Of a stretch of DNA of 64,000 nt, positions 6,101 through 62,284 are shown piece by piece. Source of the DNA: Beroe forskalii (Eukaryota > Ctenophora > Nuda > Beroida > Beroidae). The notes beneath the pieces are model-generated. The model saw only the letters and a list, made by a program, of their open reading frames with translations, was not told the origin of the DNA and did no database searches. A program made the position numbers and the translations under genes. Positions within the stretch are counted from its first letter, which is position 1. The number at the start of each line of letters is the position of its first letter. The stretch is from assembly GCA_011033025.1 (NCBI GenBank), contig WFMF01000045.1:372001-436000 (forward strand), read 5' to 3'.

Positions 6101-9100
6101 AATTCCTCCCATTGATTATGATAATCGTAGTAGATTTATCTCAAATCAATGATAAATTTGGTGCTGTGACTTGTGAGAAGGTCGTATTTGAGTAATTAAC
6201 TGACTATTACTGTGACTTCTGAGAAATTCACGTTAACTCTCACTCCTAAATCTTATTGTTAGCTACTTTCTAGACACCTTCATTTAACTACTTAAGTGAC
6301 TTGCTACCTATAGTAATTGTCCAAGACACCTATATCCCGTGACACTTGAGACCCCTGGATTTCCAGATTGCACTTCTCATTCTTTAACATTCCTCTCTTT
6401 TCAATTACACTTCTCATTCACTAACACATTTATCTTTTCAGAGTGACTGTCAGAACTTCTACAAAGTCCTGCTCATGTTGTCAGACCAGCCCGAGACTGT
6501 GATCATGGCTTGTGGGACCTGGGGCTTTGCTCCCAAGTGCGATGTCCGAAGCGTAAGTACAGATCGGGCATTACTTCGATTTCTCGAATGAGTATAAAAT
6601 AAAATAAATCTGTCTTTAAAGATGAACCGCTTACGGTCATTATGTCAACTTCCATGCCACTTCAATACCACTTGTTTTGACGGGTCTTTGAAAAGGAGGA
6701 TATATAACAGGTCTGTGTTTTTACACTTCTGGAGGCACTGGTGCCGCCGTGTCTGCTGAAGTTGGCGTATAATATCAACAGTTGCCGTGTTAATTGCCCC
6801 AGCCATTACCTCAGTTAGTTCTCGCACGGTCTCTAATGGACAGACGTTTGCCGGCCAGCTGTAGTGGCGGTGCCATTATATCCCTCACTTCTCAGGGTCA
6901 AATATTTGACGTTTACAGTTGGTTTTTCATCGCCAAATAAACTTAATTAAGGCTCGGGTTGGCCGCCTAATCAGGTCTTTGGAAATGCGGGTTGAACTGT
7001 TCTTTATACGACTTCGTGATAAAATAAAGTACCTACTTTGATAGATTTACATTGTAACCAAGACGTACCTTGTAAACACAGCAACAAGCAGGCTGGTGTA
7101 ACAGGTCATGGATTACCCAACATTTGCTTGCCTTGTTGAGGGGATTCAGTGACTGATTGACTGCTAATTGCCCCTTATTATAGAGTATTACTACCCGTAG
7201 CCATGCAGCATAAAAACCAGTGCAGCTTCGTCAAAAATTAGGGAAATTAACCTACTTTACACCTCCAAATGACACGATTATCATTCGATGCCTTGTAGCA
7301 GGTGTCACCGTGCAAATTTCATCATGTTTTGTATTCGGGGTGTTTGGGTAGACCACGAAATATCAAGTCTCTTTCAAATCCAGCTCTACACTTCTAGATA
7401 TTGTAGGTACGGTTAGACTTGCTTAATAGGAGTAATTGCTGAAAACAACTTATCATCATTCAATAATATCATCGCAAATGAGAGAAGGACTTGTAAGATG
7501 AGTGATTAAGGGAGTCTTTAAATTGAGGCATATCTTAAAAATATAAGACTTCAACTCTGGCTTCATTTTTAAAAGAGCAACCTTGAAATTTGAAAAAGTA
7601 GGGCGTTGCGTTTCTCTGTTTTCAACAGCCTGGTGATCATGAGTCATGACGTTGTGATGATTGGGGAGCTTTCATTTCCCCTCAAGTCAGTAGTGATCTA
7701 TGATATCAAACTTCGAATATTGCGGTCTCATCTTAGATAATAAGCTAGATCTGGTAAAGTGGTGACCTGTTATTTGAAATGAAGATAAAAGGCTATTTAT
7801 TGATGTTTTTGGAACTGACTCTGCAGTAAGTTATGAATGAAATCGGCTTTTCAATCTTCAATTGCACGTGATTGCACGAATGTAGCCTGTGTTATATGGT
7901 GATTCTATTGAGGTCCTTTTTCATCATTGGTTATTATTTCATATCTTGTGACATATTTGGTCTACGTCAGACGATGAACTTTGCCCCATAACAATTTAGG
8001 TGGACATTTAATTGAGTAAGTAGCACCTATATTATTAAATTTTTCACCTGATAATTGCATCAAACAACACATCATATGACATGTATTGATATCATTGGTA
8101 TGATGCGGTAGGTGCGCCTACTAATGATGAGACTATGTCCTACTGCATGATCTAGTAGTAGTGGTACACTAATGTCCGGTCAGACACAGGTGCTATGGAA
8201 CAGGGAGTCGGAAGGGTTGGAGAATGAGTTGCGAAAGAGGGGGTTTGAAAAGAACAGGACAGAGTGGGTAGTAAGCTGGTTGGAGCTTTGGAGGAAGAAC
8301 TTGGCGAAAGAGTTGGTTTGAAGAGACGTTGGTAGAGAGTGGGGAGTAAGAGGGTCGGAGTTGAAGTGGTATACTGAAGAGGGATAGAAAAGGAGGAATA
8401 GTGGGAGGTGCTAGAGACATGGTACTCCTTGTTTCTATATCATGTCTATCAGTCTATGATCTGTCTAGTGTCTAGTCCTTAGAGTACTAGTGTTCTGTGT
8501 TTTGATCCATGTTTTTAGAACTCCGTCTCCAGGCGTATTTCAGTAAAACATGATCTGTGGCAAATGATGGATTTTAGCAAATGATGTACATTACAAACCT
8601 GCACGTGTGATGTTTGGCGTATATGCGGGCTGCTGCTGCGGGCTGCTGCTGTCCCGAACACCACTACCTACCTCCTGCCACTACTACTAAACACCTGCAC
8701 TACACCTAGAGGAGGAGTGCGATCTGAATACCGAGCACGCCCTTTTGGTTTGATCTGTTGTATTTGTTACTCTCCCAAGTCATGTGCCAATATTATGTTG
8801 GGATGTATCTAGCTTTCTTTCTCTTGGTGTTCGAAAACCGCTTAGGGGGCTAAGGAGTTTCCGAGGAGGATGATCGAACTATTTAGAACATGATTGGAGT
8901 AACGTCGATTTAATTGTATTTATGAGGTGTAATCTGATGATACAAGTTCTGATAATGATCTCTGGTTATAAGCTGCGGACTGTGGTTGCTATTATAGAGA
9001 TCTATATGGGTGTTTGGGGAAGACTCAGGTTCTGAGAAGTGAATTCTTGGAACATTTCCAACAACGCAGTCCCAAGCATATAAAACCCAGACGCCCCAAC

Positions 9101-12100
9101 CAATTTCCTGAAAATTATAGTACACATAATATTATAACTGAAACCCCATTTCGAACCTTGTTCCAAATTACGTGTGTGTACACACGCGTACACAGTTCTG
9201 AAATCTTGCTTCTCCAAATTGATGCGCAGAACATGTTCTGACCAAGGAGGACAAAGTAAGATTGTTTGTTTTGAAAATTACTCTCAATTAAAAAGCAATA
9301 AATTTTACACGTTCCTAACACGCATCAATTCATAGTACGAGGAGGGGGGACCTTTGTCGCCCTCCTCCGCGCTCTGTGATCTGCTAAGAGGAGGGGAAGT
9401 CTGATTTTATGTACGTCATCAGACGTAGGGAGGTTCAAAAATCACTTTTTCCTCAAATATTCTGAATTACGAAACACTGTATATGAGTTGCTCCTGCACC
9501 TCCTGACTTTCAAAAATTGTATTTTTGTATTTTTTGGTCTTGGAATTTGTGGAGCTATTGCAATGGTTCGATGGATAAATGGGCTCCTTCCTGGTCAGCA
9601 GTGGATGAGTTTTTCAATGGATGAATTTAATTGGGGTGGTGATTGAAAAATTGTTCAAGTTTTTCAAAAGAAATGCTGTAATCCTTATCTTCAAACGCAA
9701 CTTCCAGCATGCTGCTAAGTGTGTAATATTTGTACATACATTAATCAAGATGTACCTAGCCCGATCCATCATTAGCTAGTAATGTGTACGCACAACATTA
9801 TTATCATTGTTATTGTTGTAGTCCAATCAATAGCCTCTCTTGTCATGATACTAGACTTTCAACTGGCAACCCAATTAGAGTACACATAAAACTAAAATAA
9901 CAGATCCTGTCATTGTACTACTACATGATACTGTCTCAAAGTTCACTAATCAGGTAATTACTGCCCCATTACTGGTGTATAGGCTACACAGCCTGATGTT
10001 ATTTGAAGAATATTAGACCTGTATTGAATTATGATTACAGATTAGCTGTGTGTATATATTATGTAAGTTAGATTCAGGAAAAAGGAACTGTGTACTGTAT
10101 ACCAGATTCCGGTGTTGCATTCCATCACGTTCCTGTGAGAAGAGAGAGGAGGTTACATAACGTAACATTACACGACTCAGGAATGTGTGTACACTCTCTT
10201 GGTACACGTGTGCCAGGATGACATCACTAAGTGTAATGTTGCTGTTCAATGCACGCGCAGCCAAAACAAACATTGAGGCAGAAAGTCTCAATGCTCGTTC
10301 AGAACACAAAACACAGGTTACATAGTACACCTCAAGACCTTAGAAGTTCCGAGAAGTTCAGCTTTGGCTAAACGCAGGCAGCAATCAGCTGCCTACTGGG
10401 CTACTTGGCTGCCAGAAAATCGTTATGATACCATGATAGCAGGTAGGAATAAGGACTAACAATACCAGAGCTGCGCAGGACCAAAGTGGAACAGTTGACT
10501 GGGCCTTTCTGCCTTGCAGCCTTGGTATACCTAACTGATATATTTTCTTTGTCAAAAACGGATCCAATAGACGTTCTGAATGATGGAAATTACATTTTCA
10601 CTAGAACGCGTCTTCAATTAATCAATGTTTTCATCGGCTTCAAATTTGAATATTCCCTCATAAATTCTTGAAGACTCATGTCGGCATACACATACCACGC
10701 CTTCAAAGTGAAAGACGCTTAATAATTGCAAGACAGTGTTTCAAGAGGCCATTTAAGATTAGTGTACAATTTGGCGGAATTTAGTCACGAATTCACAACT
10801 TGAACCATACAATTAAATAGAATTTGGTCAGATGCTGGGAGATGCTGGTTAGAACCTACAGTGCTTTCTGGAACTTCAGATCAATGGTAATGGAATTATC
10901 AGAAATCTAACAGTCCTAGGTATACAGGTATTGGGCATCTCGTTAAATTATAAAATGTGCCATCTGAAGTGTGGTACTTGTTACAGTTGGTACACGTGTA
11001 GTAGTTCAGCTTGACGAAGGTAATCGTTGTAAATATCCCGCATAAGTACTCTATACTGATAATCTTGTGAAGTAAGGAAGTGTGACAAGAAGCCATGTTA
11101 GTGTGACACAACCCAACCCCAGCTTACCAATTGCCGTTTAGTAGATCTGACATTGGAGTAATTCATCAAAAGATAGTGTATTACTTTGTCAAAAGATCCC
11201 AGGCATATTATTTCCACTTCAAGTTAATATAAATCACGTAGAAGCAAAAGGAAGTTCCCAACAAGAATGAAATAATGAAATAGTTAATTATAAATGTCAT
11301 CGTATGAGGCATAAATCGAACTCCAATTAGGTTTAATACGGCCCGGCCCATCTGAACTTACTAAGAATTCCCCATCATGAATTGTGAAATATATTATCAA
11401 CTTAATGACACTGCTAAAAGAACTCGGACTAAAATATGATATAATATTTCGTCAGATTACTGTAGCTGAAGTGGCTCCATTTCTCATATATCATTTGACA
11501 GATCGCTCTGATGAAGCACTCTCCCTGAGTATAAATGTAATATATCTCACATCCAGGACACCCCCCTCCTTTGAGAGAATAATCGACTTCAGAAAGGTGA
11601 CAAATTGCATCCCGGGTAGGTACTACTTTGATTTGAACTCACACAGCTCGATTCGGGATGAACTGATAAAGAATATATTAATTACTTGGAGTATCGCTAT
11701 GAAACACATTATTATATTTGAGCGTGGAGATCTTAGAGCTACAATATTACACCTTACGTCATTACTTTTACATTTCTTTCCAATCCTTCATCTCGATTTC
11801 GACTAAGAAAGTAAGAAATGTCAATGAGTTCTGGTCAGCGCAGGCAAATTCAACTGTCTTCTAGAACTGAAAAATTAAATTCTGGGTTTTGACCCTTTTT
11901 CCAGCATAACTTTGGCTTATCAAAAACAGATGGTTATTAAAAGTTATCACTGGTCCTTGAGGTTTAAGATATGTCCAATGTCAACTGTGACAAAGTGACA
12001 GATGTCGCTATAGATCATTACTACAATGTAAGTATGTGAAACACTCTCACAAAGCCCATAATCCGCCCATGACAAGTTACACCTGTGGGCTTGTTACTAA

Positions 12101-15100: not shown

Positions 15101-18100
15101 GTGAAGTGACAACATGAACAGTATACATGAAATGTACACTCGTGTGTATTTTCAGAGTTTGTAGTACTATTTAGTGCGTGTTGCAACAACATTGATGTAC
15201 AATTGCATATACACAACCTATACATTCGGATGTATGAGTGTATACACATTTTGAGTGTTTCAGTGTATAACCAGGTATTATGATATTATTTTGCTGGTCA
15301 CCTGAGTGTGTCACACGGTACACAGCCTTACATTCATGCACATAGTGAGATCTACTGATTAATCAAGAGATCTCACTTAAACTACTGTTCTCTTTAATTA
15401 ATTTAGACCTCCCCTCTCACTCACACAGTGTCTCTCACTACAGTATGTAACACATCCAATGAATATAATATTTTAATCTATGAACTACAGTACAGAAGTG
15501 CTGTAGTCCGATCAGTCCATATCTCAGGGTTAGTAAAGGGCAACATAATATGAACCATTATATGTGCATTCATATGCATCGTGCATTCATATACTACGTA
15601 AATATGCAAGATCAATTAATATGTATTTATGTAAAATCATTCCAGTAAAACTTGCTTAAAAGTATTATATGAATTTTAACTAGCTATGTTGTGTACGGCA
15701 AACCTAAGGGGAGGCATAGTTTATATATGCTTGTTGAGCCTTGCAAGGTGCTACAGATCATCATAATTGGGCCCTGCGGTTTTGCGCGCGGAGATAGAAA
15801 GAACGCCGGTTAAACCTCCGTTCTCCTGCTCGTGATACTTAGCTGGTGTGATATGGACTTAATGAGTTTACATATTATATAGAATGCATATTATGTAATT
15901 AATTTGCTGGAAAAGGTGGGTAAATCCCCCTCAGTGGATATTGTGGAGAGTGTCCCTTGGGAGTTTGGAAGATGCTTGAGACCCTCTTGAGGAATGGGGA
16001 CCCTTTGATGCTATAGTCGTCTTGAAAGAAACATATCTTCCAAGGTCACATGAGATACACGGCACACGCTGTAGGTATTGCGGAACAGATTCTCAGTCGG
16101 TCAATCTTTGGAGGAGCGATATTTAGACCCCCAGAAAAGCGAAAAAGCCCTCCTAAATGCTTTAAAAATGCCACGTCCTAAAATAGCATTGCCCGGTAGT
16201 TGCCTGTACTGCAGTCTAGCGAGCGAGACACGCACTGAAGCTATATACCAATCTATCCGGCGGTGTTCGTATACAAGTTACAAATTGGTGTCCGTTTAAA
16301 TAAATTGGTGGAGCTCGTGCCGATCATGCACAAGATGTACGGTTATTGAGTCTGCCGCGTACATTTCATACACAGATCCCAATCACCTAAGTACTGAGTA
16401 CAGACGTGGAAATTGTGTTGCAGGTTTAATTCCCTGGCATGAAATTCTCCTGATATGTGGCTGGATAAAATGACTATGATATGCAGGAGAGGGCCATATA
16501 AAACGTTTAGATGTGTAGGTAGGTGTTCAAGGTGCATTATTCGTGCATTGATTGTCATGTCACTAAGTTTAGTACATTGAACAGGCTAATTCCTCCTGAG
16601 TGTTACAGGCTGATAACTACTTTCAAGGCAAAGAAGTTGCTTTCATTGTGCTAAATCACTGAAAATCTGTCATTAAATCAACAACACCAGTATTGACTGC
16701 AATATAATCCACCGTAATAGTAATAGTATGGTTAAATAGCATCCCATTTGAAGATTGAATGATAGACTTTAAAAATAAATTACAGAAGTGTCACTTGGGC
16801 ACCCTCTCTAGATGTTGCAAATAAACAGATCCATGGTAGGTGTATTAGAGTACAAAGGAACCCCGTGACACACTTGACACAGTTTGACAGGTTGTCCCAA
16901 ATATTTAATTAATTCTATACCCCTTGAAGTGTACTCGATTAAACTGCTGAACTCCATGGGTGCCCTCTAGGTGAGAGACTCTAGTTCTACACCTACTTTG
17001 GGGGGAGTGGAAATTAATTGTTGCAATCCTATTATTACATTGTCCAGGGAATTAATACTGCGGGAGAATGAATTAAAAGTTCAAGAGAGAGTGTAGGTAT
17101 TATTCTGAGCTGAAAGGGACTTTTGGAGCAACTGAAGAGCTTGACTCAGACTGGATTAGTTTCAGCTGAGCCGAATAATAATATTATATGCTGTACAACC
17201 CGCCATTTATTCCTCTGAACAGGATAACCACATTGGTCACAGAGACGGGAGGGATTTTCTCCCCTTCGTGTGGCTTAGGAGACAGTCATCAGAGCTCCAA
17301 GTGGTTTTGTAGTTGACTCTCCTGCCGGATTGCGCTGGTGTAAGACACGTTTAAAATTATAATATGAGAAAGTCTGTAGCTTATGAATATAATCTAACTT
17401 GGTAATTTTGTGCTGAGTTATGTACACGCAAATGAGTAGGTCTTAGGAGGGTAAGAAGGGGAGGGATAGTTCAGGGATTCATTCGTCATTCAGAAGTAAT
17501 GAGTTCTTCATTAACCCCAGATTGTATATTTCAGGTTGACGCACTGGATTTTAGCGAAAGGGATCATGTCAGAAATGGGAACGGGTTCTGTCCAGCTAGC
17601 CCTCACGAGTCTACCTCCTACTTGAAACTCAGTGGAGGTATGTTCCAACCTCCAACTTCAATGGTTCAAATATCAAGTGAATGCATCATTTACAACAATC
17701 ATCTCGTATACATTATCGAGCTTAAATTTGATGATTTTAGAATGATGATTAAAGATTTTTCTTGTTTCTGTAGTACCTTTGAAACCTTTTAGAACTTGTG
17801 GAGGGCGAAGTTACCCAACATTCTGCATCACTTTTCACCCAACATTCAGCATCACTACTGACCTGTTTATCGGAGACCGCAACCTTCAACCCAAGCTATC
17901 TGAGGCCATTACTCCATTATTTGCCGGGCTATTAGTTGTAATTTGTACCACTTACAACGCATTGTTTGACACATGTTTAGTAATGACAGGAGCTGCAGTA
18001 TGTTGTGAGGGGTGCGATTGTTACCCCTCACATTATGCTACTCAGGACCCCGACACAATGCCCCATTACTTGGTTTACTGGTTTAGAGTGCTGCAGGACC

Positions 18101-21100
18101 CCGTTACATTCCGATATTACCATATTACAATGCCCATGTCATGAAACAATTGGTCTAAGGGGTTAAAGTTCGAACATAACAATGGGGATGTGAGATGATG
18201 GAGAGATCAATGACTTCGTGTGGATAATTCGAGTAGGCATAATTATTCAAAAAATTGGTCAGTTATATTATCTCAATACTACGGTGTTATTATGGATCTG
18301 GCAGAATAATTCAAAACATTGTGTAGCATTGAGATCTCAGAACACTAGTAGTTACTAGTTGTACAAAGCACAGATTCTACTTAACACAGAGCATCTCTTG
18401 TAATTGCTAAAGATTTTAACCTTTGATCATTCTACTACAATCTCTCTCCAACTCTTTCTAAACCTTATCATGTGTTGACCATTGTCCATTTCCTCCTTTT
18501 CTGTCCCTCTCTCTTTATCTAGATTCATTGCACTGATTGCGCTCAATATCCTGGACCTGTGTTGGTGATGAAGACTCATTAATTCATGTGTACCATGGTC
18601 CTACTTCACCCGCAATATATAAACGGTGATCTGATCACGTGACACGTGGTGATCTGATCACGTGACATGTCAGCTGAGCTCTGATTGGTCGGAGGCTGGA
18701 GCAGTGCTGCTCAGTTAGCGTTCCTCATCTCTTATACATTAGATCACGATGATAAGTTGCAATAATGAGGGCTACTGACCTCTCTCACCGGTTCCAAGAG
18801 TCGACATGTCATTGTAACTATCTCCCTCTCTTCCTCTCCTGCTGCTACAACTATATGACTCACTTGATGAAGAGAACGCAGATGTATGTGATGTCATTAT
18901 CAGGGTTTAAAATGGTGTATAGCTACCATCAGACCTCACATATCCAAACATTTACCATGTTTACTCTTACTCATTCTGTCTGAATTCGTTAACGTTTAAT
19001 GACTCCGCGATAATGAATATACAATGACTTTTGCCCCCGTATTACAAAGGCTCTGCATAACATTGCACCCTCCATTAGGAGTCATTATCTGCCTGATGGT
19101 TCCTGTCAAATGTTTCACGCCGAATGGCACCGCCTGCTCCCCTCTGTTATGCTAATCGTGTGTCGGGATGATCTTTGTTAGGGTTAAGTGGGGGCAAGCA
19201 TTGTGCTGAACGATGCTGGCGACTTCCCAAATCATCATGTGACTTCTTACGGCACATCATTTCACACAACATAAATGTCCATTACTGTCGCCACTGGTGT
19301 CCCAAGGAATTTTATTGATGAATGGATAGAAAAGTGTGTTGTAAACAACTGGTTATGACTTTGTGGTCTGTGGATTGTGAGATGCAGGTTGTGATCCATG
19401 AGCTGTGAGCTGCAGCAGCGTAGCAACAGACCTCCCCTTGTCTCCAAGGCGGCATGTGTTTTGAGGAGGAGGAAACAGGATGGTTTGTTATCCTCAAACA
19501 TCATGTGGGATATAGAACTACCGACATTGCAAGATTCAGTGGGCTCCTGTCCTGACGGATGTTTCGGGTTTCTATTGATACCAGGAAATTAGCAGGACAA
19601 AGTAGGTAATTAGGAGATAGGAACAAATCACAGATGCTTGGCCAAGTAGGAACACTACCGGTAATTGGTATGATGTGTGCTGTTATGTGATTAGGAAGGG
19701 ACTGAGAGGTCTCCCTCACTCTAATGTTTCAAGTCCTTGTTCGGGACCTCCGGGGCCCTCACACACAAGGATATCAGACCCTCTTCCTGCTTGCACCGCA
19801 CTCAAATAGTGAGCAGTTAATAGTGATGTCATTGCCATGGTTTAGAATGTTGAGTTGATGACGTTGTACCGCCCATGGGTCGCTTGCGAGGTCTGTTCCT
19901 CTCAAAGACCCTGCCGCCACCCCCTCAGACAGGAATCTGAAAGACATGATCCGGCTAATTGAACTGATCCGGCTACTTTTTCCGGATACATGCGTGTGTG
20001 TATGTGTGTGTGTGTGTGCCAGGAGCCCTCCGGTGTATAGTGGAGTGTGTTTTTAAAGTGGGAATTACAGCACAGCTTTTTTAAACTATCAGGAAGAGAT
20101 TATTTCATCATGGTGACGAATTTTCGATGATCTGATTGGATAGGGAGTCCCAATCAGGAGCCGGGGCATATTGAGGAATATTTGCATATTTACTATTTTC
20201 TTACATAACCTAATAATGCCTGGTTCGGCAAAACCAAGAATTTCAAATTCGTCTCTCTAGGCAAACACGAAGAATAGTGATAGGAGGATGAAATTGATTT
20301 GACGGAAGCTATAATCATGGTGAATGGTGATTTTAATTTTCAATCTCCATTTCCACCCGGAAAGAAAGTATTTGATTAACTAATATAAACTATAATTCTT
20401 CAGCATTATCGGTATCCAAAAGTAAAATATTTAACCAATCACAATTACAAGCGATTACAGTATCACCCGAACTAAACCAAGGTATTCAAATATTTAGATA
20501 TCTTGGCATTTTAATCAATGATATATTTCATTGTGATTAGCATAGCATTCAATAACACATTTTGACTGTTGATAGCACGAAATATTTATTATCCAAAAAC
20601 CGAGTGATCCAACACAGTATGTAATAAATTATACCTCTTGTTATTCAAATATACACCTGATTTTCGAGAATAATTCGTATATATTTGAATGAATAAAACC
20701 CTCGGATGATATTATGTTGTAGTGGAGTAGTACAATACCCCTAATTGGCATTATTTTATTAGCACTATGGCTTCACCTGGCGTAGCATTGGTACCCCGAA
20801 CGTTTTGAACGGTTTAGCGATTACGTAGATTAATTTAACTTACGTCTTACGTGATGTAAAATTGCTAACTACTTTTAATATCAAATAACTCTGGTCCTAT
20901 TTTAATGCCTCGAGTTGATTATGAATACTCAATGCACTATCCACATAACTATCTCCAAACCTTATACAACGAATTACAGCCAGAATCAGAATTAATGATC
21001 ACTATTTTGATTACCATAGCAATCGTACTTTGTCGATAAGGTTTCAGAAACCATTTAAAAGAGATAATACGTATTATTTACCGCGTGGCCGGATATAGCG

Positions 21101-24100
21101 GTTAAGTAAGATGTGTTATTTTTGAGTTTTTTTCATACTTATGATATTATTTTCACACTTTTGATATTATTTTCACACTTTCGGTATTATTTTCATAGTT
21201 TTTGGTATCATTTTCATAGTTTTTGGTATTATTTTCATAGTTTTTGGTATTATTTTCATAGTGTTTGATATTATTTTCATAGTTTTTCTATTATTTTCAC
21301 AGTATTCAATATTATATTCACACTTCTTGTCAAGAGTTCCTAAAGGAACCCCGAGACGGAGCCTCACATCAAAGCTTTGATAAACAAGTCGTATTGCTCA
21401 CCACGTAAAGGCTACCGTCTAAAGACAAAAGTTATACTTATATGCTGAGAGTGAAGAAAATGTTTTCTTGCGTTTGAAAAACTTAGAAATAAATATATAA
21501 CTCCCAACAGCGAAGTAACAAATTGTTTTTCAACTCGGGCTGCGCCCTCGATGAAAACAAATCATTATTCAACTCAGGTTTTTCTTCGCTCGAGGCATAA
21601 ATTATGTTACTTCACTGTTGCTCGTTATGTAACTCTATATTATTCACCATGTGGTGGGGTTATACCGGTTGAATAAAAACGTATTATTTTGAGTTTTTTG
21701 TCGTATTACTCCACCCTTTTGGTATTATTGCCCACTTTTACCATGTTATTCCACTCTTACATCGTGTTATTTGCCATTTTTATGATGTTATTCAACACTT
21801 GAGCCAAATAAGTGATACGACAGAACGTCCTTTTCCGCTGGGAGAGCTGGCACACTGCTACCTTGACTGATCAGTAAATAATTTCTCTACACCAAAAAAG
21901 TGATACTAGAGAACGTCCTTTTCTGCTGTGAACTGTGCAGAATGCTAAAAATCTCGGCCTTTTAAAGGGTCAAAGCTTTGTACTTTTTTACACTTGGTGA
22001 ATAATATCGTTACACAACTCATAAGTATGAAGTAACAGCATGTTTTCAACTCGGGCTGCGCCCTCGATGAAAACAAATCATTATTCAACTCAGCCTTCGG
22101 CTTCGGTGAATAATGCGATTTATGCAACTCGCTTCGCTCGTGGCATAAATCATGTTACTTCACACTTATTCGTTGAGTAACTCTATAATATCCAATTTAT
22201 GCAGCTCAAACAGAACAAAATTCCGCCAAATCAAACAGATATGTTCAAGGTTTTTACTCGAAAAATTCAGTCAAAGCCGATTTTTTTTGCGGATCATATT
22301 GACATAATATTCTGACATTCCGAAGGAACAATTTTAGTTCTCAATCTAAGATGTTTTGTTCCACTTCAATCTCTGAGCTGAGATCAAAGTACATTCCACG
22401 ATGCTGTTCGTCTGCCATTATGCTAATTATTGAGACACAGTGCACGTTATGTCACATAACAATAACACACTGATTTACCTACCACTACTGGTAGCATATC
22501 ATGATAATATTCTGTTTGTGGTTCTGCCAGCATATAGCCAGCATATCATCTCACACGTAATACAAGGCAGTTGCTAGTTACGTCATTGTCAAGGTTTATC
22601 GTGGTAAGTTGTTGACACCTCTCAGCGTATCATAATATATTTATCTAGATCTCAGAGATAGTAGACGCTAGACAGCTGGTGCAGTGCATATCGCAAGCTG
22701 TGTATCTTGGCAAGCTACTCAAATAATTAACAGCACTTCACTCTAACTGCGAGCATGCCACATAATATCCTGTCACTCCAGAGACATTAGGGACATTGGA
22801 ACATGCCTTTCGTACACTAATCTGTGGTCTAAATTTATAGACTGTATAGACCGTATTGACCACAGATTTTTGTACAATGCTTCACAGAAAGTTTGTGCAG
22901 TTTATTAAAATTCCGAAGGCGAAAACTGCATCTCTGACCTCCGACCACCTCAAAGCTCACTTTTTGATTTCTCGTCCTCGAGGATCCTATTTTCCCATGA
23001 GGCCTCTGCTGAACTGCTCCTGATCCCACTTCTACCTATTTCAATCTTCTCTTTGCCTATCCAGATATCGAGTTTTAGGGTTTTGATTTCCCTCATTTCA
23101 ACCCAAGATATTGGGTTTGCGGGTTGCTAACTCCCCCAATTCCTCAAGACATCGGGTTTGCGGGTTTTTAACTCCCCTCACTTCCTCCAGATATTGGATT
23201 TGCGGGTTTCTAACTCCCCCACTTCCTCCAGATATCGGGTTTGCGGGTTTCTAACTCCCTCATTTCCTCCAGATATCGGGTTTGCGGGTTTCTAACTCTC
23301 CTCACTCCCTCCAGATATCGGGTTTGCGGGTTTCTAACTCCCCTCACTTCCTCCAGATATCGGGTTTGCGGGTTTCTAACTCCCCCACTTCCTCCAGATA
23401 TCGGGTTTGCGGGTTTCTAACTCCCCTCACTTCCTCCAGATATCGGGTTTGCGGGTTTATAACTCCCCCTCACTTCCTCCAGATATCGGGTTTGCGGGTA
23501 CATGTACGGACGCGTGTACGAGTGACGCAATCACGCGTTTCAACCTGCAGCTGGGCTCGCTGGCTGCTACGAGCTACACCTTCGACACGAAGGACATGCT
23601 CAGTGACCCGGTGTTCGTCTACTCTTTCGAGGAAGGGGAACATGTGTACTTCGTATTCAGGGAAACTGCCTCAGAGATGGCTACCGAGGTGAGGGATAGG
23701 CGGGGGAATGTTTCAAATATAAACTTGTGTTTTTGTTTTGAATGAGATAAGTCAAAAGATATAAACTTGTGTTTTGTTTTTAAATGGATGTTAAGTGTAA
23801 ACGTGTTTCGTTTTAACGGTTTACATTGGGATTTATATCGATTCCTGACACCTTAACAAAAGTGCATTGAATCTGCACGGGGTAATTTGATCCAAAAATT
23901 AGCATGCGCCCATTGCCCCAGAGTACCAGAATCTCGTTTTTTGGTGGCACTTTCTCCTAAATGAATTGTACATTTTAACGTACGCGGATACGATAATATA
24001 CTAATGCCTAAATTTATATATATTTTGACTTTTATAATGATATGTTACACAAGGAATTGCCCTGATAAAACACAGTAACAACAGCTGCCGGGCAATTGAC

Positions 24101-27100
24101 ACCAATCCTGCTCACACCCACCTGCCTTATCGTGATAAGCAGTTAGCAGAGCCTTGTGATATTATGGGTCGTGTGTGTATGAATATACTGGTATGTTTTA
24201 ACAAACTTTATAACATCGTGTTCCACAATCCACACACACGTCGCGTCGTATAGTAATGATAATATGTATTTAATTATATTCCCGCATGCACTATACTAAA
24301 CACGCGTAATGATGCCGGTCGTGACAATGATAAGGGGGTGTTTTGTGAGATAATGATTGTAATATAATGATCGGAGAAGGAGGTGTATAAGGTGTGACAT
24401 GTTTTACATAAAGCTGCCGTTAGCGCCACTGGTGTAATATATTTACTGGTACTTCTATTATTATTATCGTCGTTATCGACAGGTGTTCTGTTAGTTACCA
24501 TTAGGCGCTCATTACGAAGTGACGTTTCACCTGGTGCATGTGTACTTCCTATTGACCGTATTACATGTAAACAACATAATCTAAACAACATTTTAAATAG
24601 CAACCTCTTTACCTCTCAGAAGATTGATGAAAATTGAATTTAGACATTTGAACTCTCAACTCTTATCAATAGATGAAAGTAGATTATCTTTTGATGAAAT
24701 TGTTAATGCCGATCAATACCAAATCAAACGAACCAATTCTGACAATTTTGACATTTTGTTCAACTTCCATGATTCCATTTCTAATACTTTTTGACACTTT
24801 TAAATACTTGAATTTATATTTTTGATACTTTTTAATAACCCTTGTATTTCCCCACAGAAAATCTTCTCGCGTATCGGACGGATTTGTAAGAACGACGTGG
24901 GGAGTAGCAGCAGTTTCATGGCTAACTACTTCCTCTCCTTCTTCAAAGCGAGGTTCTACTGCACCAGCTCCCAGGCAGGACAACAGCCCTTCGATCACGA
25001 CGAAATACATGAGTAGAGGAGATATCTGTTTATTTCTCTGCTGAAATATTTGTGTTTTGTTGTTGCGATCTTTGGTGAACTGGAACACGAAATTATATTA
25101 CTCTCGTGAGTCAGGCTTTTGTCCGATCATTGCTTCAGGTACCTTCGTGTTCACTTTTTATAAATTTCATACACAACTGTTTACACGATATACATACAAT
25201 ACACTTGTACATTGTATCGTGAACGCGATGTACAATGTAAACATCACCCTAGTCTGAGATTCTTCAAGATCTGATATATTTCCGTGTGTCTGTAATTATT
25301 TGGTGGCGGGCTGCATGTCGAATGGCACATGAGAAAGGGCGGGTGTTGGTGGCCGTCCCATTACCCGGCTGAGTAGGAAGCAAGCAGGAAGTACATCCCG
25401 CGCACACGGGGGTAGCCAGCTCTACGTCAACAATTCACTACTCTCAGCAGTCATAATGACGTCATATGTCATCTGCCAAGCACGCATGCGCCATAATGCG
25501 AATAATATACAGCGCGCCGAAACGCACATATTTCCCTTTAACAAATGATAACACACATATCGTGTGTATGTTTACAACCTGTGTGATATGTCTCAGACTC
25601 GGTGGAGGGAGGCCTAGTGTAGAGCCTGTGTCTCCCACGATACGTGTTGTCTCTCCCATGACTCATGTTTTACACATGTCTACTAACTCCTGCTTTTCAC
25701 ATACCCCTTGACCGTGTGACTAGTAGTGTGGGAAAACCAGGCGGTTAAAGTGATGGAATAACCATGCCGTAGCCCGTAGAATGGCGAGTGTATAACTCCA
25801 AACAGTCTGTTTCCAAGCCCAGGACGGTATGAAGCGATGGTGTGTACGTATATTCTTATATTGGTGTGAGTATGTGACGAATAAATTACAGAGGGGTCTT
25901 CTGTTTTAAAAGAGACAGCATATTATGGGAACAATAGGGTCGCCAGTGAGGCGAGGTGAAATCATTGCCAAGTGAGACAAGGAGAAGGAGATAGAGCCTC
26001 TGTTTACTATCGTGTGGGGCGATACTCCATCCTAATCATATAGAAACGTAGCTCTAGACTGGCTACGTAGGTATTTGTGTGAGTTAGTACGTGTGTATCT
26101 TACACAAATATATCTACGTAGCGTGTACGTGTGTATCTCTGTGTGTACGTCTTTGTATATAGAGTGACGTGCGTCCTGAGTGACGTGTACTAAAGTCTCA
26201 ATATAATTCCTAGAGACAATGCCTACACACACCATGTGTACACGCGCCCCAGTATCGGATTATATATGCCTTTGTTTCTCGTAATCATAGGTCTCAGTAC
26301 CAGTTGTTTAGGAATGATACAGAGGGCTACCAGGAAACAATGGCCCGGAACGGGGTACCTATTATCTAGTGGGTTACCAACGTTTAGTCATCGCGACCAT
26401 TGTTGAGAGGATTACATTACGTAGCTTAGAAGTATGAAAATAATGGCGTGTTTACAATATACAGTTTAGTGGAATGTATGCTGTGCGGAATGTGCATTCT
26501 TTGTAATAATCTGATTGCGCTGAGTGTACGCGTGTTTAATCGCAATCCTGATAGCCTTACTGAGATAATGTTACTGATAAGAACTATCATTAAAAGTTAT
26601 TCTTGTGAACGATATTACTTTGCAATAGACTGGGATCAGATCAATAAAATTCTGTAAGTGAATGTAATTTCAATGATATCTAGATATTGATACAATATTT
26701 CCTTGTGTTTACCTAAACCTGAACTTCAGATGGTGCTACATACAGAGACGGAGTGTTGTATGCAACATTCAGTGGACCTAAGTGAGTGTTTAGAACCGCA
26801 TATCAGCGCACATATTCTCATTTCTTATTAAACTTTTAAAATCTTGATTTAAAATACCAACATTTCATGTCATGAAAATTGTTTTAAATTTCACCGATAT
26901 AATATAAGAATTTTAAAACATGCCTTTACATTTCGCTTCTTTCCAGGAACTTACAAACAGGCTCCATTGTGTGCTCCTATCCTATTGCCACGATTAACGA
27001 TGCTTTTGACGGCCCTTATCTGACGTACGATGAAGATATGCGGGAGTGGAATACGCTGCCAAACAACAAATATAACGTGAGGACTTCTTACTTAAATCAT

Positions 27101-33100: not shown

Positions 33101-36100
33101 AAATTCCAAAATCCAACAAAATTAATTTCGTGGTGACCAGAGGATTGAACTGGAATATCTGAAAGCTAGCTCCAGCGCACGCAGCACATGATGCCACTAC
33201 ACCAAGCTAAACCGACGCGAGTGATATTATAAAGGAGCAATTGGTTGATGCGTATGACGAATTACCCCCACATTATGACAAATTACCCCCACATTATGAC
33301 GAATTACCCCCACATTATGACGAATTACCCCCACTTTCATTTTCCGGGCACTTTTCAGATTTAACAGTACGGATAAAGGTAGTATACACAAATTCTCTCA
33401 TAATCCTCCAAACCACATCCATTACTAACCCTCTTCAATGCCTTTTTGTAAGACAAAAAGGCGATTGGGGAGGGAAAAAATCTTGTTAAGACGACTTATA
33501 GTAGCGTGCTATAAAGTAATAAAGTATTGAAATTCTAACAATATCTTTCAAAACGTGGCTACTTAATAGTTTGATTAAGTGCTCGAAGTGAAAACATTTG
33601 ATCAAGAAGCTGAACAATTAATTACATTCCGTCTCTGAAGTAATTGTTTCTCAGTATTCAAAGTTAATTAATTAGTTAATTCTAATTGGGGTAGTTAAGG
33701 CTCACTAGAAGCTCGGAGTTAGGTGATGTGAGTTCCCCGGAATTCCATTGTTTGTCTAAGATCTTAAGATCGAATTAGCTGCTCACCTCTGGATCACAAA
33801 GGCACCCCACCACATCTGAAAAGTAGTTCTGTGGGTCTGTGAGGAGGCGAGCTTTGTCGCTTTGTTTCTAACTTATCAACTTCTTCCCAACGAAGTTCTC
33901 CGAATTCCACACAAAAGGTTGAGATAGTGACGTCAATGTCAGGGTTTTGAATAGTGAATTGGTGACATAAAACAGCCTGTTCTCCGTGGTGTGTTTAACA
34001 GATCCACATTCCAAGAGTTGCACATTGCTCAACACCATGATATAAGATCGATGAGGTTTGAAAACATGGTTTGAGTACCTACTAAGTCATGCCGTTGCTC
34101 ATGCTACTTGGTAATGTCCTCATTCCATTCATATTACTACAACTAAAGAATTCCAATTTCAAATTGTCAAAGAAGTATCATTCATAAGATTTTCTTTTTA
34201 GCTACAGAGTATGACGCAAATTTTACAATGAGCCATTTTACATCTTTTTAAACATTTCAAACCTTTAAACTCGAAAGTAATGTCAAAAGTGTAACACACA
34301 TTTCCAATGGTAACCAGATGTTTCAGTATATGACGATAATAACCATTTTAACTGTTTTCCACTCGGCACTGTTTCCCGCTTTAATATGCCCACACAAGAA
34401 AATGACGTCATTAACATAGCTTAACATAGTAAGTTTAGGACGTTGGATTGTCTATTTTTTGTGCGGGGTTAGTCCGCACACTCAAGTCTCAAGTCATCAT
34501 TCAAGCAGCTGATTATTGGTTACCACCGACTTAATCATACTAATTCACTGGAATATTGAAAATATAAACACTACTACTACTATGGTCCCCTTTAGTCTTG
34601 ACTCCGTGTTACGTAACAGTGGCTTTTACTTCAGATCGGAGTTTTTGAGCTTCAATCGAAGGTACTTATGTCATTTGTAAACTAAAAACTTACCAATGTA
34701 ACTGAAAAACCTTGAAAATTAAGCAACCATATTCCATAATTGCCATATTGAGTCTTTGTTGAGACCGTGGACTAATAATTTGAAATGTTTTAAATCTGTT
34801 ACACGTGACATGTCACGTGACGAATGTATCACGTGTTGCAGTTTCACAATGTAACTTCTTGTGGTAACTTGTAACTCTCCCACAATATTGTGCTTAGAAT
34901 GGGACGCGCACTGGCGGCATAACACACCATTGAGAATGGCAGTACTAAATAGGAGTTTATTAAAACATTAAAATAGGAGTAATAATAGCAATTTAGATTA
35001 TCATCATCTGGAAGCTGGACACGGTTTAGTGGACAATAATTGCAATTAAAGCGCTGTTTATCATATTATACGGGTCATTATAATATTGTTCTGACAGCAG
35101 TTTAACCACATGTTCTCTGGGTGATGGTCCGTGTATGTGTGTTCGTTTGTCTGTACGGTGTTGCAAGTGTTATTATGTCGGGCGTCGGCGCAGCCTAATC
35201 CTCGACATCAGCCCAAGTGCAGCCGAGTCTCAGCGCCACCGAGTCTGTCTTAATCCTAATCGCCTCCTTATCCAAACCTCCTGCCTATTTTTACCGTGTT
35301 CTCCCTGGTTAATGTGGCATCATGTTTGGTGTCATGGGTACCACTTCCCCTTCCACCTTCCAGATACGGTCCCCTTTGAGATATGGTACCCACACAAGCA
35401 TCTCTAATGATTGTCACGTGACGAATGTATCACGTGTTGCAGTTTCACAATGTAACTTCTTGTGGTAACTTGTAACTCTCCCACAATATTGTGCTTAGAA
35501 TGGGACGCGCACTGGCGGCATAACACACCATTGAGAATGGCAGTACTAAATAGGAGTTTATTAAAACATTAAAATAGGAGTAATAATAGCAATTTAGATT
35601 ATCATCATCTGGAAGCTGGACACGGTTTAGCGGACAATAATTGCAATTAAAGCGCTGTTTATCATATTATACGGGTCATTATAACTTTATAATATTGTTC
35701 TGACAGCAGTTTAACCACATGTTCTCTGGGTGATGGTCCGTGTATGTGTGTTCGTTTGTCTGTACGGTGTTGCAAGTGTTATTATGTCGGGCGTCGGCGC
35801 AGCCTAATCCTCGACATCAGCCCAAGTGCAGCCGAGTCTCAGCGCCACCGAGTCTGTCTTAATCCTAATCGCCTCCTTATCCAAACCTCCTGCCTATTTT
35901 TACCGTGTTCTCCCTGGTTAATGTGGCATCATGTTTGGTGTCATGGGTACCACTTCCCCTTCCACCTTCCAGATACGGTCCCCTTTGAGATATGGTACCC
36001 ACACAAGCATCTCTAATGGTCCAGAGCAAGCCGGGTGGTAGAATGAGTGGTATTGGTAGATCTGTAGAAGTGCCGGCTATTACCCGAGACTATCTGTCTC

Positions 36101-54180: not shown

Positions 54181-57100
54181 CCCACAGGCCGAGAGTCGTA
54201 TTTTGCGGCATTGCAAGCTTACCTAATCAAATGGAAGGCAAAATAAGGCTCCCACTGGCATAATCAAATGGCGTAATGGTGCCATTGGTTCTAATCAAAA
54301 ATATACCATTGCCATTCTGCAACAAGCAAATCAAATGGTTTAGCAGAGCCAGGCACATGGTACTCGCATTAAGCATAATCAAATGCGGTAAAAAGAGCTG
54401 GGTGCTCACGAGCAGCAAGCATAATTAAATGGACTAGACAGGCCGGGTACACAGATTCTCCTGCAATTAAGCATAATCCAAATGGGGTAGATAGGCCGGG
54501 CCCATGTTAAGCATAATCAATGGGAGCCTCATTTTGTTATAATCAAATGGGGTAGATAGAGCCGGGCCCACAGAGTCACCTGCAGCAAGCAAAATCAAAT
54601 GGATTAGATAGAGCCGGGCACACAGAGTCTCCTGCAGCAAGCATAATCAAATGGAGTAGATCGTAGCCGGGCACATTATCGCGCCTGCAGCAAGCATAAT
54701 CAAATGGAGTTGATAGAGCCGGGAGTCACCTGCAGCAAGCAATAATCAAAATGGACCAGATAAAGCCGGGCACACAGGAGTCTCCTGCAGCAAGCATAAT
54801 CCAAATGCGGTAGATAGGCCGGGCACACAGGGTCACAGCAAAGCATAATCAAATGGATTAGATAGAGCCGGTGCTCACAGATTGTGGCAAAAATCAAATG
54901 GGGTAGATAGAGCCGGGCACAGAGTCACCTGCAGCAAGCAAAATCAAATGGTAAAGAGAGCTGGGTCAGAAGGGAGCAAGCAAAATCAAATGGGGTAGAT
55001 AGAGCCGGGCACACAGAGTCTCCTGCAGCAAGCATAATCAAATGGGATAGAGGCCGGGCACACAGAGTCACCTGCAGCCATAATCAAATGGGGTAGATAG
55101 AGGCCGGGCCCACAGAGTCACCTGCAGCAAGCATAATCAAAATGGATTAGATAGAGCCGGGCACACAGAGTCTCCTGCAGCAAGCATAATCAAATGGGTA
55201 GATGGGCCGGGCACACAGAGTCTCCTGCAACAAGCATAATCAAATGAGGTAGATAGAGCCGGGCACACAGAGTCCTGCAGCAAGCATAATCAAATGGGGT
55301 AGATACTAGATAGGGCCAACACAGACACCTGCAACAAGCAAAATCAAATGGAGTAGACAGAGCCGGGCACACAGAGTCCTGCAGCAAGCATAATCAAATG
55401 GGGTAAATAGAGCTGGGTCCGAAGAGTCTGAAGCAGCAAGCATAATTAAATGGACTAGACAGAGCCGGGCACACAGATTCTCCTGCAGCATTAAGCATAA
55501 TCAAATGGGGTTCATAGAGTCGGGCACACAGAGTCACCTGCAGCAAGCATAATCAAATGAGGTAGATAGAGCCGGGCCCACAGAGTCACCTGCAGCAAGC
55601 ATAATCAAATGGATTAGATAGAGCCGGGCACACAGAGTCTCCTGCAGCAAGCATAATCAAATGGAGTAGATAGAGCCGGGCCCACAGAGTCACTTGCAGA
55701 AAGCATAATAAAATGGGGTAGATAGAGCCGGGCCCACAGAGTCTCCTGCAGCAAGCATAATCAAATGGATTAGATAGAGCCGGGCCAACAGGAGTCTCCT
55801 GCAGCAAGCATAATCAAATGGAGTAGATAGAGCCTTCACCAAAAGTCTCCTGCAGCAAGCATAATCAAATGGATGCCGGGTAGATAGGCCGGGCAAGCAT
55901 AATCAAATGCGGAGCCTCCAAGCAAGCATAAGCCAGTAGATGAGCCGGGACACAGGTCTCCTGCAGCAAGCATAATCAAATGGGGTAGATAGAGCCGGGC
56001 ACACAGGTCACCTGTACAAGCATAATCAAATCTGCCTTTAAGCCAATTTAGTCCTGCAGCAAGCATAATCAAAACAGTCAATACGCGAAAATTGTGAAGG
56101 TTTTATCACCTGCAGCAAGTCTATAATCAATTTAATGACATAATTTGGAGTCACAACAGTTTCCTGCAGCAAGCAAAATCAAATTTTTGGCTGAAGATAG
56201 AGCCTCTAACATCAATCTAGGTTGCAGCAAGCATAATCAAATTAAAATAAATAGGCAGATAGAGCCGGTTTTACACCTTCTCCTGCAGCAAGCATAATCA
56301 AATGGAGTTGATAAGCCGGGCCACAAGTCTCCTGCAGCAAGCATAATCAAATGGGGTAGATAGAGCCTGGGGCCCCTCTAACATCCAATCAAAGCATAAT
56401 GTAAATGGATTAAAACAGCCAGCCCTGCAGCAAGCATAATCAATGAGGTTTATACCTTCCGATTGGTTCTAGAATAATTTAGTGACATAATTGGATCACA
56501 ACAGCTCCTGCAGCAAGCATAATCAAATGGAGTAGATTTTGCCGGCCACACAGAGTCACCTGCAGCAAGCATAATCAAATGGAGTTAGATAGAGCCGATT
56601 AAAAGAGTCTCCCAGCAAGCATAATCACATGGAGTAGATAGGCCGGGCCCACAGAGTCACCTGCCAGCAAGCATAATCAAATGGAGTAGATAATTGGATC
56701 ACACAGAATCCCTGCAGCAAGCAAAAATCAAATGGTTCAGATAGAGTGAATCTGTCTCTAAGATCAATTTGGTTAATGTAGCAGAGATTAAAAAACAGGG
56801 TCCAGCCATAATCAAAGGGTGTAAATAGAGACATCTAAGATTGTTTGCAAGGATCAATCAAAATGGCAAGTAGATAGATCAGAACAGAGTCTCCTGCAGG
56901 CATAATCAAATGGGGTAGATTTTGTGCCTGGAGTATGCCTCTGGATCAATCATAATCAATGTTTAATTTGATTAACAATCCTTTCTTGCCAAAACGTTTC
57001 AGGTATCATAGAGATTATTTATCATGCAGCAAGCATAATCAAAAGATAGAGCCGGGGTCAGATTTTCCTGCAGCAAGCATAATCAAATGGCTTTTCCCTC

Positions 57101-59890
57101 ACCTCATAGAGCCGCCCATCTCATCACGAATCACCTGCACCCAGCAACCATAATCAAATGGGGTAGATAGAGCCCCTCACCATACTTCCCCAACCTAATA
57201 AATGGTTAATCCCTCACAGAGTCTTCCCTGCACCAACCATAATCAAATTAGTAGATAGAGGCCGGGCCCTCAGTCCTTGCAGCAAGCATAATCAAATTAA
57301 TTAATAGAGCCGGGCTCACTTTAGCATAATTAAATGGAGTTAAAGTCCCCCCTTAGATTCCCTCAGCCCATAATCGGCCATCACACCATCTTGATCTTCC
57401 CTCTACTTCACTTCCCTTTGCCTCACTACCGGCTTAGGGCCCTCACCTTGCAGATCACAAGCATAATCAAATGGGTATGTTTGAGCCCCCAACACATGCA
57501 TCCTGCACAAGTTAAAAATTGATTTACCAATAACGTTGTTATTTATGGATTAGATAGAGCCGGGCACACAGAGTCTCCTGCAGCAAGCATAATCAAATGG
57601 ATTAGATAGAGCCGGGCCCACAGAGTCTCCTGCAGCAAGCATAATCAAATGGAGTAGATAGAGCCGGGCACACAGATTCTCCTGCAGCAAGCATAATCAA
57701 ATGGAGTTAGATAGAGCCGGGCCCACAGAGTCTCCTGCAGCAAGCATAATCACATGGAGTAGATAGAGCCGGGCCACACAGAGTCTCCTGCAGCAAGCAT
57801 AATCAAATGGATTAGATAGAGCCGGGCACACAGAGTCTCCTGCAGCAAGCATAATCAAATGGATTAGATAGAGCCGGGCCCACAGAGTCACCTGCAGCAA
57901 GCATAATCAAATGGGGTAGATAGAGCCGGGCCCACAGAGTCACCTGCAGCAAGCAAAATCAAATGGATTAGATAGAGCCGGGCACACAGAGTCTCCTGCA
58001 GCAAGCATAATCACATGGAGTTGATAGAGCCGGGCACACAGAGTCACCTGCAGCAAGCATAATCAAATGGAGTAGACAGAGCCGGGCACACAGAGTCCTG
58101 CAGCAAGCATAATCAAATGGGGTAGATACTAGATAGAGCCGGGCACACAGAGCCACCTGCAACAAGCAAAATCAAATGGAGTAGACAGAGCCGGGCACAC
58201 AGAGTCCTGCAGCAAGCATAATCAAATGGAGTAAATAGAGCTGGGTCCACGAAGAGTCTCCTGGCAGCAAGCATAATTAAATGGACTAGACAGAGCCGGG
58301 CACACAGATTCTCCTGCAGCATTAAGCATAATCAAATGGGGTAGATAGAGCCGGGCACACAGAGTCCTGCAGCAAGCATAATTAAATGGGGTAGATAGAG
58401 CCGGGCACACAGAGTCACCTGCAGCAAGCATATTCAAATGGATTAGATAGAGCCGGGCACACAGAGTCTCCTGCAGCAAGCATAATCACATGGAGTTGAT
58501 AGAGCCGGGCCCACAGAGTCACCTGCAGCAAGCATAATCAAATGGAGTAGATAGAGCCGGGCCCACAGAGTCACTTGCAGAAAGCATAATAAAATGGGGT
58601 AGATAGAGCCGGGCCCACAGAGTCTCCTGCAGCAAGCATAATCAAATGGATTAGATAGAGCCGGGCCAACAGAATCTCCTGCAGCAAGCATTATCAAATG
58701 GAGTAGATAGAGCCGGGCACACAGAGTCACCTGCAGCAAGCAAAATCAAATGGAGTAGATAGAGCCGGGCCCACAGAGTCACCTGCAGCAAGCATAATCA
58801 AATGGGGCAGATAGAGCCGGGCACACAGAGTTTCCTGCAGCAAGCATAATCACATGGAGTAGATAGAGCCGGGCACACAGAGTCTCCTGCAGCAAGCATA
58901 ATCAAATGGAGTAGATAGAGCCGGGCCCACAGAGTCACCTGCAGCAAGCATAATCAAATGGGGTAGATAGAGCCGGGTCCACAGATTCTCCTGCAGCAAG
59001 CATATTCAAATGGAGTAAATAGAGCCGGGCCCACAGAGTCACCTGCAGCAAGCATAATCAAATGGGGTAGATAGAGCCGGGCCCACAGAATCTCCTACAG
59101 CAAGCATAATCAATTGGGGTAGATAGAGCCGGGCCCACAGAGTCACAAGCAGCAAGCATAATCAAATGGAGTAGATAGAGCCGGGCACACAGAGTCACCT
59201 GCAGCAAGCATAATCGAATGGAGTAGATAGAGCCGGGTGCACAGATTCTCCTGCAGCAAGCATAATCAAATGGAGTAGATAGAGCCGGGCCCACAGAATC
59301 TCCTGCAGCAAGCATAATCAACTGGGGTAGATAGAGCCGGGCCCACAGAGTCACAAGCAGCAAGCATAATCAAATGGAGTAGATAGAGCCGGGCACACAG
59401 AGTCACCTGCAGCAAGCATAATCAAATGGAGTAGATAGAGCCGGGTGCACAGAGTCTCCTGCAGCAAGCATATAATAAAATGGAGTAGATATAGCCGGGC
59501 CCACAGAGTCACTTGCAGCAAGCATAATCAAATGGGGTTGATAGAGCCGGGCCCACAGAGTCGCTTGCAGCAAGCATAATCAAATGGAGTAGATAGAGCC
59601 GGGCACACAGAGTCTCCTGGAGCAAGCATAATCAAATGGGGTAGATAGAGCCGGGCCCACAGATTCTCCTGCAGCAAGCATAATCACATGGAGTTGATAG
59701 AGCCGGGCACACAGAGTCAACTACAGCAAGCATAATCAAATGGAGCAGATAGAGCCGGGCACACAGAGTCTCCTGCAGCAAGCATAATCAAATGGGGTAG
59801 ATAGAGCCGGGCCAACAGAGTCTCCTGCAGCAAGCATATAATAAAATGGAGTAGATATAGCCGGGCCCACAGAGTCACATCTCACAAGCA
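54180..59890. repeat. 52 bp satellite array, about 100 copies
   Basis: The unit contains GCAAGCATAATCAAATGG, GTAGATAGAGCCGGGC and CACAGAGTCTCCTGCA, in that order, total 52 bases (measured 58861 to 58913). Copies from 57540 to 59880 are regular. Those at 54180-55200 and especially 55830-57540 are disrupted. Minus-strand open frames are repeat artefacts, since 52 is not a multiple of three and the frame rotates. Nothing suggests coding or CRISPR. Confidence 0.95.
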
Positions 59891-61925: not shown

Positions 61926-62149
61926 AAGCGCTAGGTGCGCTTTCCCCTAACCAGGGGCGTCGCGCCGCGCACTCCGTGCGCGTAACCAGGGTCCTGGTTA
62001 GGGCAAGGTGCGCTTAATAATGAAAGCTCCCGTTTATATGGGAGACTGACCCGTATATCCATTGCCAGACGTTGCCTGCCCCATATTTTTTCAACTCTGC
62101 GAGTCGGGGCGCGCGCTTCGCGCGCGAGGGGCGAGGCAACGCCTGGCAA

Positions 62150-62240
62150 TATATCCATGTCTGCGTTGCGCGGCGCGCTTCCTGATCAGGGAAGCGCGCG
62201 GTGCGTACACACACCTAATACCTATGCGGGCTTGGGAAGC
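62150..62240 (+). repeat. GC-rich foldback arm, forward copy 2
   Basis: Contains ATATCCATGTCTGCGTTGCG, GTACACACACCTA and CTATGCGGGCTTGGG. It abuts the reverse transcriptase fragment that follows. Confidence 0.75.
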
Positions 62241-62284
62241 CATTTTTAAGCCATTGCACAGGCCACAGCTCAGCTATTTTTACC

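Follow-up and report, generated by a model that had tools for sequence, protein, structure and literature searches.

Minisatellites that repeat an exon boundary have been described in amphioxus, where they are termed mirages. They occur in Adh3, in the globin genes BflGb6 and BflGb9, in TnC and in PGBD5, at both 5' and 3' boundaries, with units ranging from 10-72 bp in Adh3 up to 150-160 bp in BflGb6 (PMC3087553, PMC3902484). In the accessible portions of these reports, 6 units in one haplotype are set against 3 in another, and splicing is reported or inferred to be undisturbed. For human genes of segmental duplications, the available text of a further study describes internal tandem repeats with units of about 30 bp, some of them at exon-intron boundaries (PMC2812944). 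An RdRp gene of potato, according to the accessible part of its description, gained an intron by tandem genomic duplication (PMC4974935). No mirage under that name was found outside the cephalochordates in a literature search that covered few subscription papers.

The array analyzed here lies in a ctenophore genome, a host unlike amphioxus. It was found in a stretch of 64,000 bases (bases 372001-436000 of C525, hereafter the window) from a 216 Mb assembly, in which the locus was matched once. Like the amphioxus mirages, as far as the available text describes them, it is built of minisatellite-like tandem units lying across an intron-exon boundary, many units keeping the AG or GT. Correct splicing of the mirages has RT-PCR support, whereas for exon 7 the splice sites are predicted from sequence. 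With the human boundary repeats, in the portion of that report at hand, it shares minisatellite expansion at boundaries; the human repeats, however, are tied to novel introns and to alternative transcripts with RNA support, whereas the exon 7 decoys read into stop codons (PMC2812944). The resemblance to the potato gene appears to lie in a tandem duplication carrying splice signals (PMC4974935), but the window locus shows no new intron or exon.

The exon 7 acceptor and its array

Exon 6 (17535..17637, forward strand, as are all features of this gene) reads to a single terminal G (phase 1), followed by a donor GT at 17638. Intron 6 (17638..23482) is 5845 nt long. Exon 7 (23483..23688) comprises 206 nt, from DIGFAGTCTDACTSDAITRF to VYFVFRETASEMATE, passes from phase 1 to phase 0 and has its donor GT at 23689; its predicted splice junctions were placed by homology. 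The coding stretch of the next exon (24870..24977, RIGRICKNDVGSSSSFMANYFLSFFKARFYCTSSQA) reads RIGRICKNDVG..., a peptide that we take to resemble the semaphorin motif RVARVCKND.

The joined peptide of exons 6 and 7 matched Semaphorin-1A (6qp9; E 3.5e-6) and Semaphorin-6D (E 1.2e-4) in phmmer searches, with both alignments spanning the junction and FAGTCTDA of the peptide aligned against YSGTVADF of Semaphorin-1A. A Pfam search with the same peptide gave no Sema match, its sole match being to an unrelated family (E 0.15), and a downstream exon fell slightly below the Sema cut-off (23.1 vs 23.7 bits). The semaphorin identity therefore rests on phmmer, on relatives within the same genome and on this sub-threshold downstream match. 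In one such relative, a paralogue on C270 (locus L033), the corresponding acceptor reads TGTTCCAG/ATTCTACAG/TGGGGTTCAGTGCTACGTGC, with two candidate AGs 9 bases apart, both in the same phase and at most three codons from the boundary in the window. No array was found at this acceptor (coverage 0). Both the homology to semaphorins and the paralogue acceptor, which sits at the matching position and has no array, support the last copy of the array as the true acceptor, with the exon starting at 23483. The earlier note had likewise placed the real exon start in the last unit, and both the phmmer alignment across the 6/7 junction and the C270 paralogue agree.

Tandem Repeats Finder reported a repeat at 23060-23499 with period 42, 10.5 copies, 89% matches and a score of 671. 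Within it, the exon-boundary minisatellite (23065..23482) consists of 10 decoy units of 41-43 bp, whose first bases lie at 23065, 23108, 23149, 23191, 23232, 23273, 23315, 23357, 23398 and 23440. The acceptor-to-acceptor spacings, from the decoys to the true exon, are 43, 41, 42, 41, 41, 42, 42, 41, 42 and 43. Each unit begins with the first 16-17 nt of exon 7, degenerate in the outermost units, and continues through a TTTCTAAC-like motif and a C/T tract to the AG of the next unit, giving about 16-17 exon bases and 25-27 intron bases. In a typical unit, ATATCGGGTTTGCGGG-TTTCTAAC-TCCCCTCACTTCCTCCAG, the exon 7 start is thus followed by a branch-point-like motif, a pyrimidine tract and AG; we presume that the TTTCTAAC-like motif corresponds to the metazoan branch-point consensus. 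The last unit (23440..23482) carries the branch-point-like TTTATAAC, the tract and, at 23481-23482, the AG of the putative true acceptor. All ten decoys keep the AG, and 6 of the 10 units are identical to the true exon over 17 bases from its first base.

The consensus unit matched 9 times between 23001 and 23500 at no fewer than 30 of 42 bases, and none of 500 base shuffles contained any match. Edits to the consensus, from the unit farthest from the exon to the nearest, number 12, 5, 2, 3, 2, 2, 0, 1, 0 and 2; divergence falls with proximity to the exon (Spearman -0.78, p 0.007, n=10), a trend driven by the outermost units. These results uphold two statements of the earlier note: that the units are copies of the intron 6/exon 7 boundary, and that the copies nearest the exon are the most alike. 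Its count of about ten units also stands, but the spacing of 41-42 bp that it gave is widened to 41-43.

A search of the 216 Mb assembly for the unit pattern gave 12 hits, 9 of them in the exon 7 array and the other 3 with 3 mismatches each, compared with 2 hits for a reversed control pattern; no further array of this unit was found. The RNA of the array does not fold better than shuffled sequences (z +1.59; 99 of 100 shuffles were equally or more stable), and no known RNA family reached its gathering score in 22500-24200.

Arrays of at least 3 copies occupy 7,752 of the 64,000 bases of the window. Large ones with a 52-bp unit and a 20-bp unit (about 48 copies) lie at 54539-59876 and 60436-61408, and an in-frame repeat of 15 bp (51824-51965, about 9.5 copies, TQPHI units) lies in an open frame at 51239-52114, downstream of an Ig exon. 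Identically translated open frames at 35084-35407 and 35693-36016, 609 bp apart, represent a local duplication. A further open frame (62050-62394) contains VDAENAFNSLN, presumably a reverse-transcriptase-like motif.

Frames, strength and variation of the decoys

Because exon 6 contributes a lone terminal G to the split codon, nine of the ten decoys, if joined to it, would read D-I-G-F-A-G-x-stop, where x is C, F or L and the stop is a TAA within the CTAAC-like motif; the outermost would read D-I-E-F and then TAG. The stop falls within 8 codons in every case. The earlier note had described all decoys as ending in DIGFAGx and TAA, which is correct for nine and not for the outermost, and its claim that use of a decoy would truncate the protein is borne out by all ten. 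Early stops were also found in the arrays at other loci described below: in 29 of 30 C270 units (3 of the 30 lack the AG), 14 of 14 C780 units and 4 of 4 C242 units. In the myosin array, 5 of 7 units (1 of the 7 lacks the AG) stop before the real exon and the rest are frameshifts; in the C160 array 16 of 16 stop, with the phase assumed. None of the decoys examined in the window, C270, C780, C242, myosin and C160 arrays yields an in-frame extended protein. Since the early stops arise with differing sequences and in differing frames, unconstrained decoys suffice to account for them and selection is unnecessary.

Acceptors were scored with a matrix of our own, in the window for the true site and the nine inner decoys. 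The real acceptor scored 10.5, the seven nearest decoys 10.2-10.7 and the next two 3.9 and 5.1. The best donor in the consensus unit reaches 1.9 bits, compared with 10.0 for the donor of exon 7.

With the five acceptor arrays pooled, decoy AG bases departed from consensus at 4 of 152 positions and other bases at 146 of 4254 (p 0.82); neither preservation nor loss of decoy AGs is detectable. Exon-derived parts of the units carry fewer changes than intron-derived ones (61 of 2415 vs 85 of 1839 bases, pooled, p 0.0002). The C780 array is the only one in which this difference is significant by itself (1 of 448 vs 11 of 280, p 0.0002). The window (p 0.50), C270 (0.23) and C160 (0.10) arrays lean nonsignificantly in the same direction, and the myosin array is reversed (6 of 63 exon-derived vs 7 of 182 intron-derived bases changed, p 0.10). 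Under strict neutrality, no such deficit of changes in the exon-derived parts would be expected; one possible cause is conversion from the real exon, which is under constraint.

Arrays at other exon boundaries

Arrays of the same design but with unrelated units were found at exon boundaries in two further semaphorin genes, at PSI-domain exons of C160 and in one myosin gene. The C270 paralogue, found through relatives of exon 7, has ATTTCAG/ACTGGCTGAACAGGCCCACGTTTGTCTACTCG as its next acceptor. The C270 acceptor array (L026 1-1516 and L033 1775-3114) has a 50-bp unit, with about 31 copies in L026, and fills approximately 1.55-1.59 kb (about 90%) of an intron of 1.75 kb. This intron has no counterpart at this place in the window gene and is a candidate case of a minisatellite enlarging or creating an intron. 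Two further places on C270 (L026 2245-2830 and L009 3-113) carry repeats of about 37-38 bp in which ATTATCGCACGAGGCGAAGCCGAGTGCAATAATT-like inverted sequence is abundant; these may represent a small inverted-repeat element.

The second semaphorin acceptor array, at an exon that starts with VVSRIARVCKDDTG and lies near Sema matches, was seen on C780 (L005 321-1130) and C242 (L004 2260-2529), with a 54-bp unit in 15 and 5 copies, respectively. Identity between the two sequences is 96.8% across 495 bases that surround the exon and 85% across 1566 flank bases, which suggests alleles or recent duplicates. On the minus strand of C160, an acceptor array with an 88-bp unit (about 18 copies, extending beyond the locus) lies at the PSI exon start VVYSCQKVQDCSTCKGLDPTFQC (L077 1582-3129), and a donor array with a 35-bp unit (about 10 copies) lies 16 kb away at a PSI exon end (L076 1157-1506). 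The PSI matches are weak, yet above cut-off (24.4 and 25.8 vs 23.1 bits); we would guess that both exons belong to one plexin-like gene. The C225 myosin array (L083, reverse complement 7256-7516) has a 34-bp unit in about 8 copies, each unit holding CTAACC, TTTCAG and the first exon bases; its exon, FNSFEQLCINLTNEK, matches myosin at 94.1 bits. In 3 of these other 4 acceptor arrays the real acceptor scores weakly with our matrix (5.1, 3.0 and 5.5 bits). An array at 8806-9665 of the L083 reverse complement was rejected as a mirage: it abuts the acceptor with 16-bp units that have no AG. At L055, a short 17-bp array lies shortly upstream of an acceptor and its units likewise have no AG.

The frequency of such arrays at boundaries was surveyed over 55 exon hits (Sema, exon 7 relatives, PSI and myosin), which overlap and come partly from the same genes. 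Boundaries were inferred automatically, giving 53 acceptors; the procedure erred at L026, where it chose a decoy lying 50 bp upstream of the real acceptor. Arrays covered 5 of the 53 acceptors, one being that of the window and one merely abutting an AG-less array, and 1 of 55 donors. These counts do not include the C780/C242 array, which lies at neighboring exons. At these loci 17,612 of 148,841 bases lie in arrays of 3 or more copies. Thirty kinase loci (18 minus, 12 plus, read by strand), mostly single-exon matches in one long frame, had none of 30 acceptors and none of 27 donors in arrays, with 4,536 of 112,930 bases in arrays; two-copy or short arrays were noted near the kinase frames of L045, L046, L050, L059 and L062. 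Combined, 5 of 83 acceptors are array-covered, or 3 of 82 when the index case is dropped and the abutting array disregarded, vs 8.5% of bases in arrays. The rate at boundaries is thus of the same order as the base coverage, and in these small and non-independent numbers there is no sign that boundaries attract arrays.

Origin and possible roles of the exon 7 array

We consider it quite likely that the exon 7 array is a mirage: a minisatellite of neutral character that arose when a segment spanning the intron 6/exon 7 boundary was duplicated in tandem. Its units span the boundary with both intron and exon sequence, homology and the paralogue point to the terminal copy as the authentic boundary, and the AG is retained throughout. 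The array is probably a by-product of short-repeat growth rather than a switch. The earlier note had suggested that it might titrate splicing or act as a poison-exon switch, a proposal left without support by the poor donor, the absence of detectable AG conservation, the array-free paralogue and the unrelated arrays of the same design. Poison exons, which act through AS-NMD, are separate exons, conserved among species or paralogues, each having an acceptor, a donor and an early stop. The decoys are like them in that their use would bring an early stop; the array, however, includes no separate donor-bearing exon, the best donor in a unit being far weaker than that of exon 7, and in the one paralogue seen the corresponding acceptor, being array-free, gives no sign of conservation. 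On both grounds a poison exon was rejected. Short tandem acceptors of the NAGNAG type, in which AGs 3-12 nt apart share a branch point and tract, were rejected as well, since the AGs here are spaced 41-43 nt apart and nearly every unit has a branch-point-like motif and tract of its own.

A regulated switch was also considered: decoys could be used in some tissues or stages, with the truncated, NMD-sensitive transcripts setting the dose of semaphorin. The AG and early stop present in all ten decoys and the equal strength of the real and nearby decoy acceptors favor such a switch, as does the available text of a study linking minisatellites of C. elegans to splicing decisions (PMC4039745). We nevertheless judge it improbable: the paralogue acceptor has no array, unrelated units sit at unrelated genes, decoy AGs have changed about as often as other bases, no good donor is present for a cassette exon, and arrays of different sequence on C270, C780, C242 and C160 also produce early stops. 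A still less probable role is that of a landing strip for branch-point and pyrimidine-tract factors, which would aid exon definition after a long intron. Most units do carry the requisite branch-point-like and pyrimidine module, but a donor-side array also exists (C160), the real acceptor is weak in most of the other acceptor arrays, and the paralogue acceptor does without one. That the assembly has expanded or mis-joined a single acceptor we regard as barely credible, given that the units are distinguished by point changes and single-base indels, with divergence rising outward, and that several independent arrays share the design.

If the array is a mirage, its history may be inferred as follows. 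A tandem duplication over the intron 6/exon 7 boundary would have created a second complete acceptor, and slippage or unequal exchange would then have multiplied the units. Because the duplicated segment holds the branch-point-like motif, tract, AG and exon start, every round would yield another complete-looking acceptor. The copy touching exon 7 would remain under selection, and the array would be tolerated because this last copy still joins the full exon 7. With an upstream intron of 5.8 kb, exon definition may favor the acceptor closest to the exon 7 donor; a decoy used now and then would lead to a stop and presumably, if nonsense-mediated decay is assumed, to loss of the transcript. In human data, as given in the accessible text, long flanking introns tend to favor pairing of the splice sites that are nearest to each other on either side of the exon; for 3' sites under exon definition, the upstream preference is significantly reduced and not reversed (PMC9225289). 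The latter result counts against an easy choice of the last copy.

Table-5-like mitochondrial codes are used by most invertebrate bilaterians and by amphioxus. C1134 (L081; 13,339 bases) of the same assembly is mitochondrial, with a highly divergent COX1 that contains four in-frame TGA codons, read as tryptophan. Its AGA codons are best read as Arg, at positions that we take to be conserved (PRxNNxSFW and DRNxxTSFF), which fits table 4 and not table-5-like codes. The mitochondrial contig by itself thus makes a ctenophore host likely and does not resemble that of amphioxus. Ctenophore mitochondria are thought to use table 4, in the part of the report available (PMC6991124), and their genomes are described, in similarly partial text, as small and fast, that of Beroe cucumis having 10,487 bp. 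In another ctenophore, the accessible text reports a TRF repeat share of 13% of the genome and elevated indel heterozygosity in introns (PMC8527503); this repeat load and heterozygosity are compatible with high minisatellite turnover.

The array, of a kind already known from the amphioxus mirages, is notable for its lineage, for the similar arrays in other genes of this genome and as a competition experiment by nature: some ten to thirty near-identical acceptors in a row constitute a natural assay of splice-site competition. Since the correct acceptor is not singled out by its local signal, RNA reads would test the use of the exon-proximal copy, as under exon definition, against that of upstream copies. 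It is conceivable, though we think it unlikely, that boundary minisatellites occur widely in this non-bilaterian genome and act as evolvable splicing rheostats that seed boundary shifts and intron growth. If so, the number of decoy acceptors or donors would determine what fraction of transcripts is lost to premature stops, and changes in copy number would tune the dose. Boundary arrays call for caution by gene annotators and offer fresh intermediates for studies of intron evolution. Their presence in semaphorin, PSI-domain and myosin genes suggests that high minisatellite turnover may generally give rise to mirages, which would then be no peculiarity of amphioxus.
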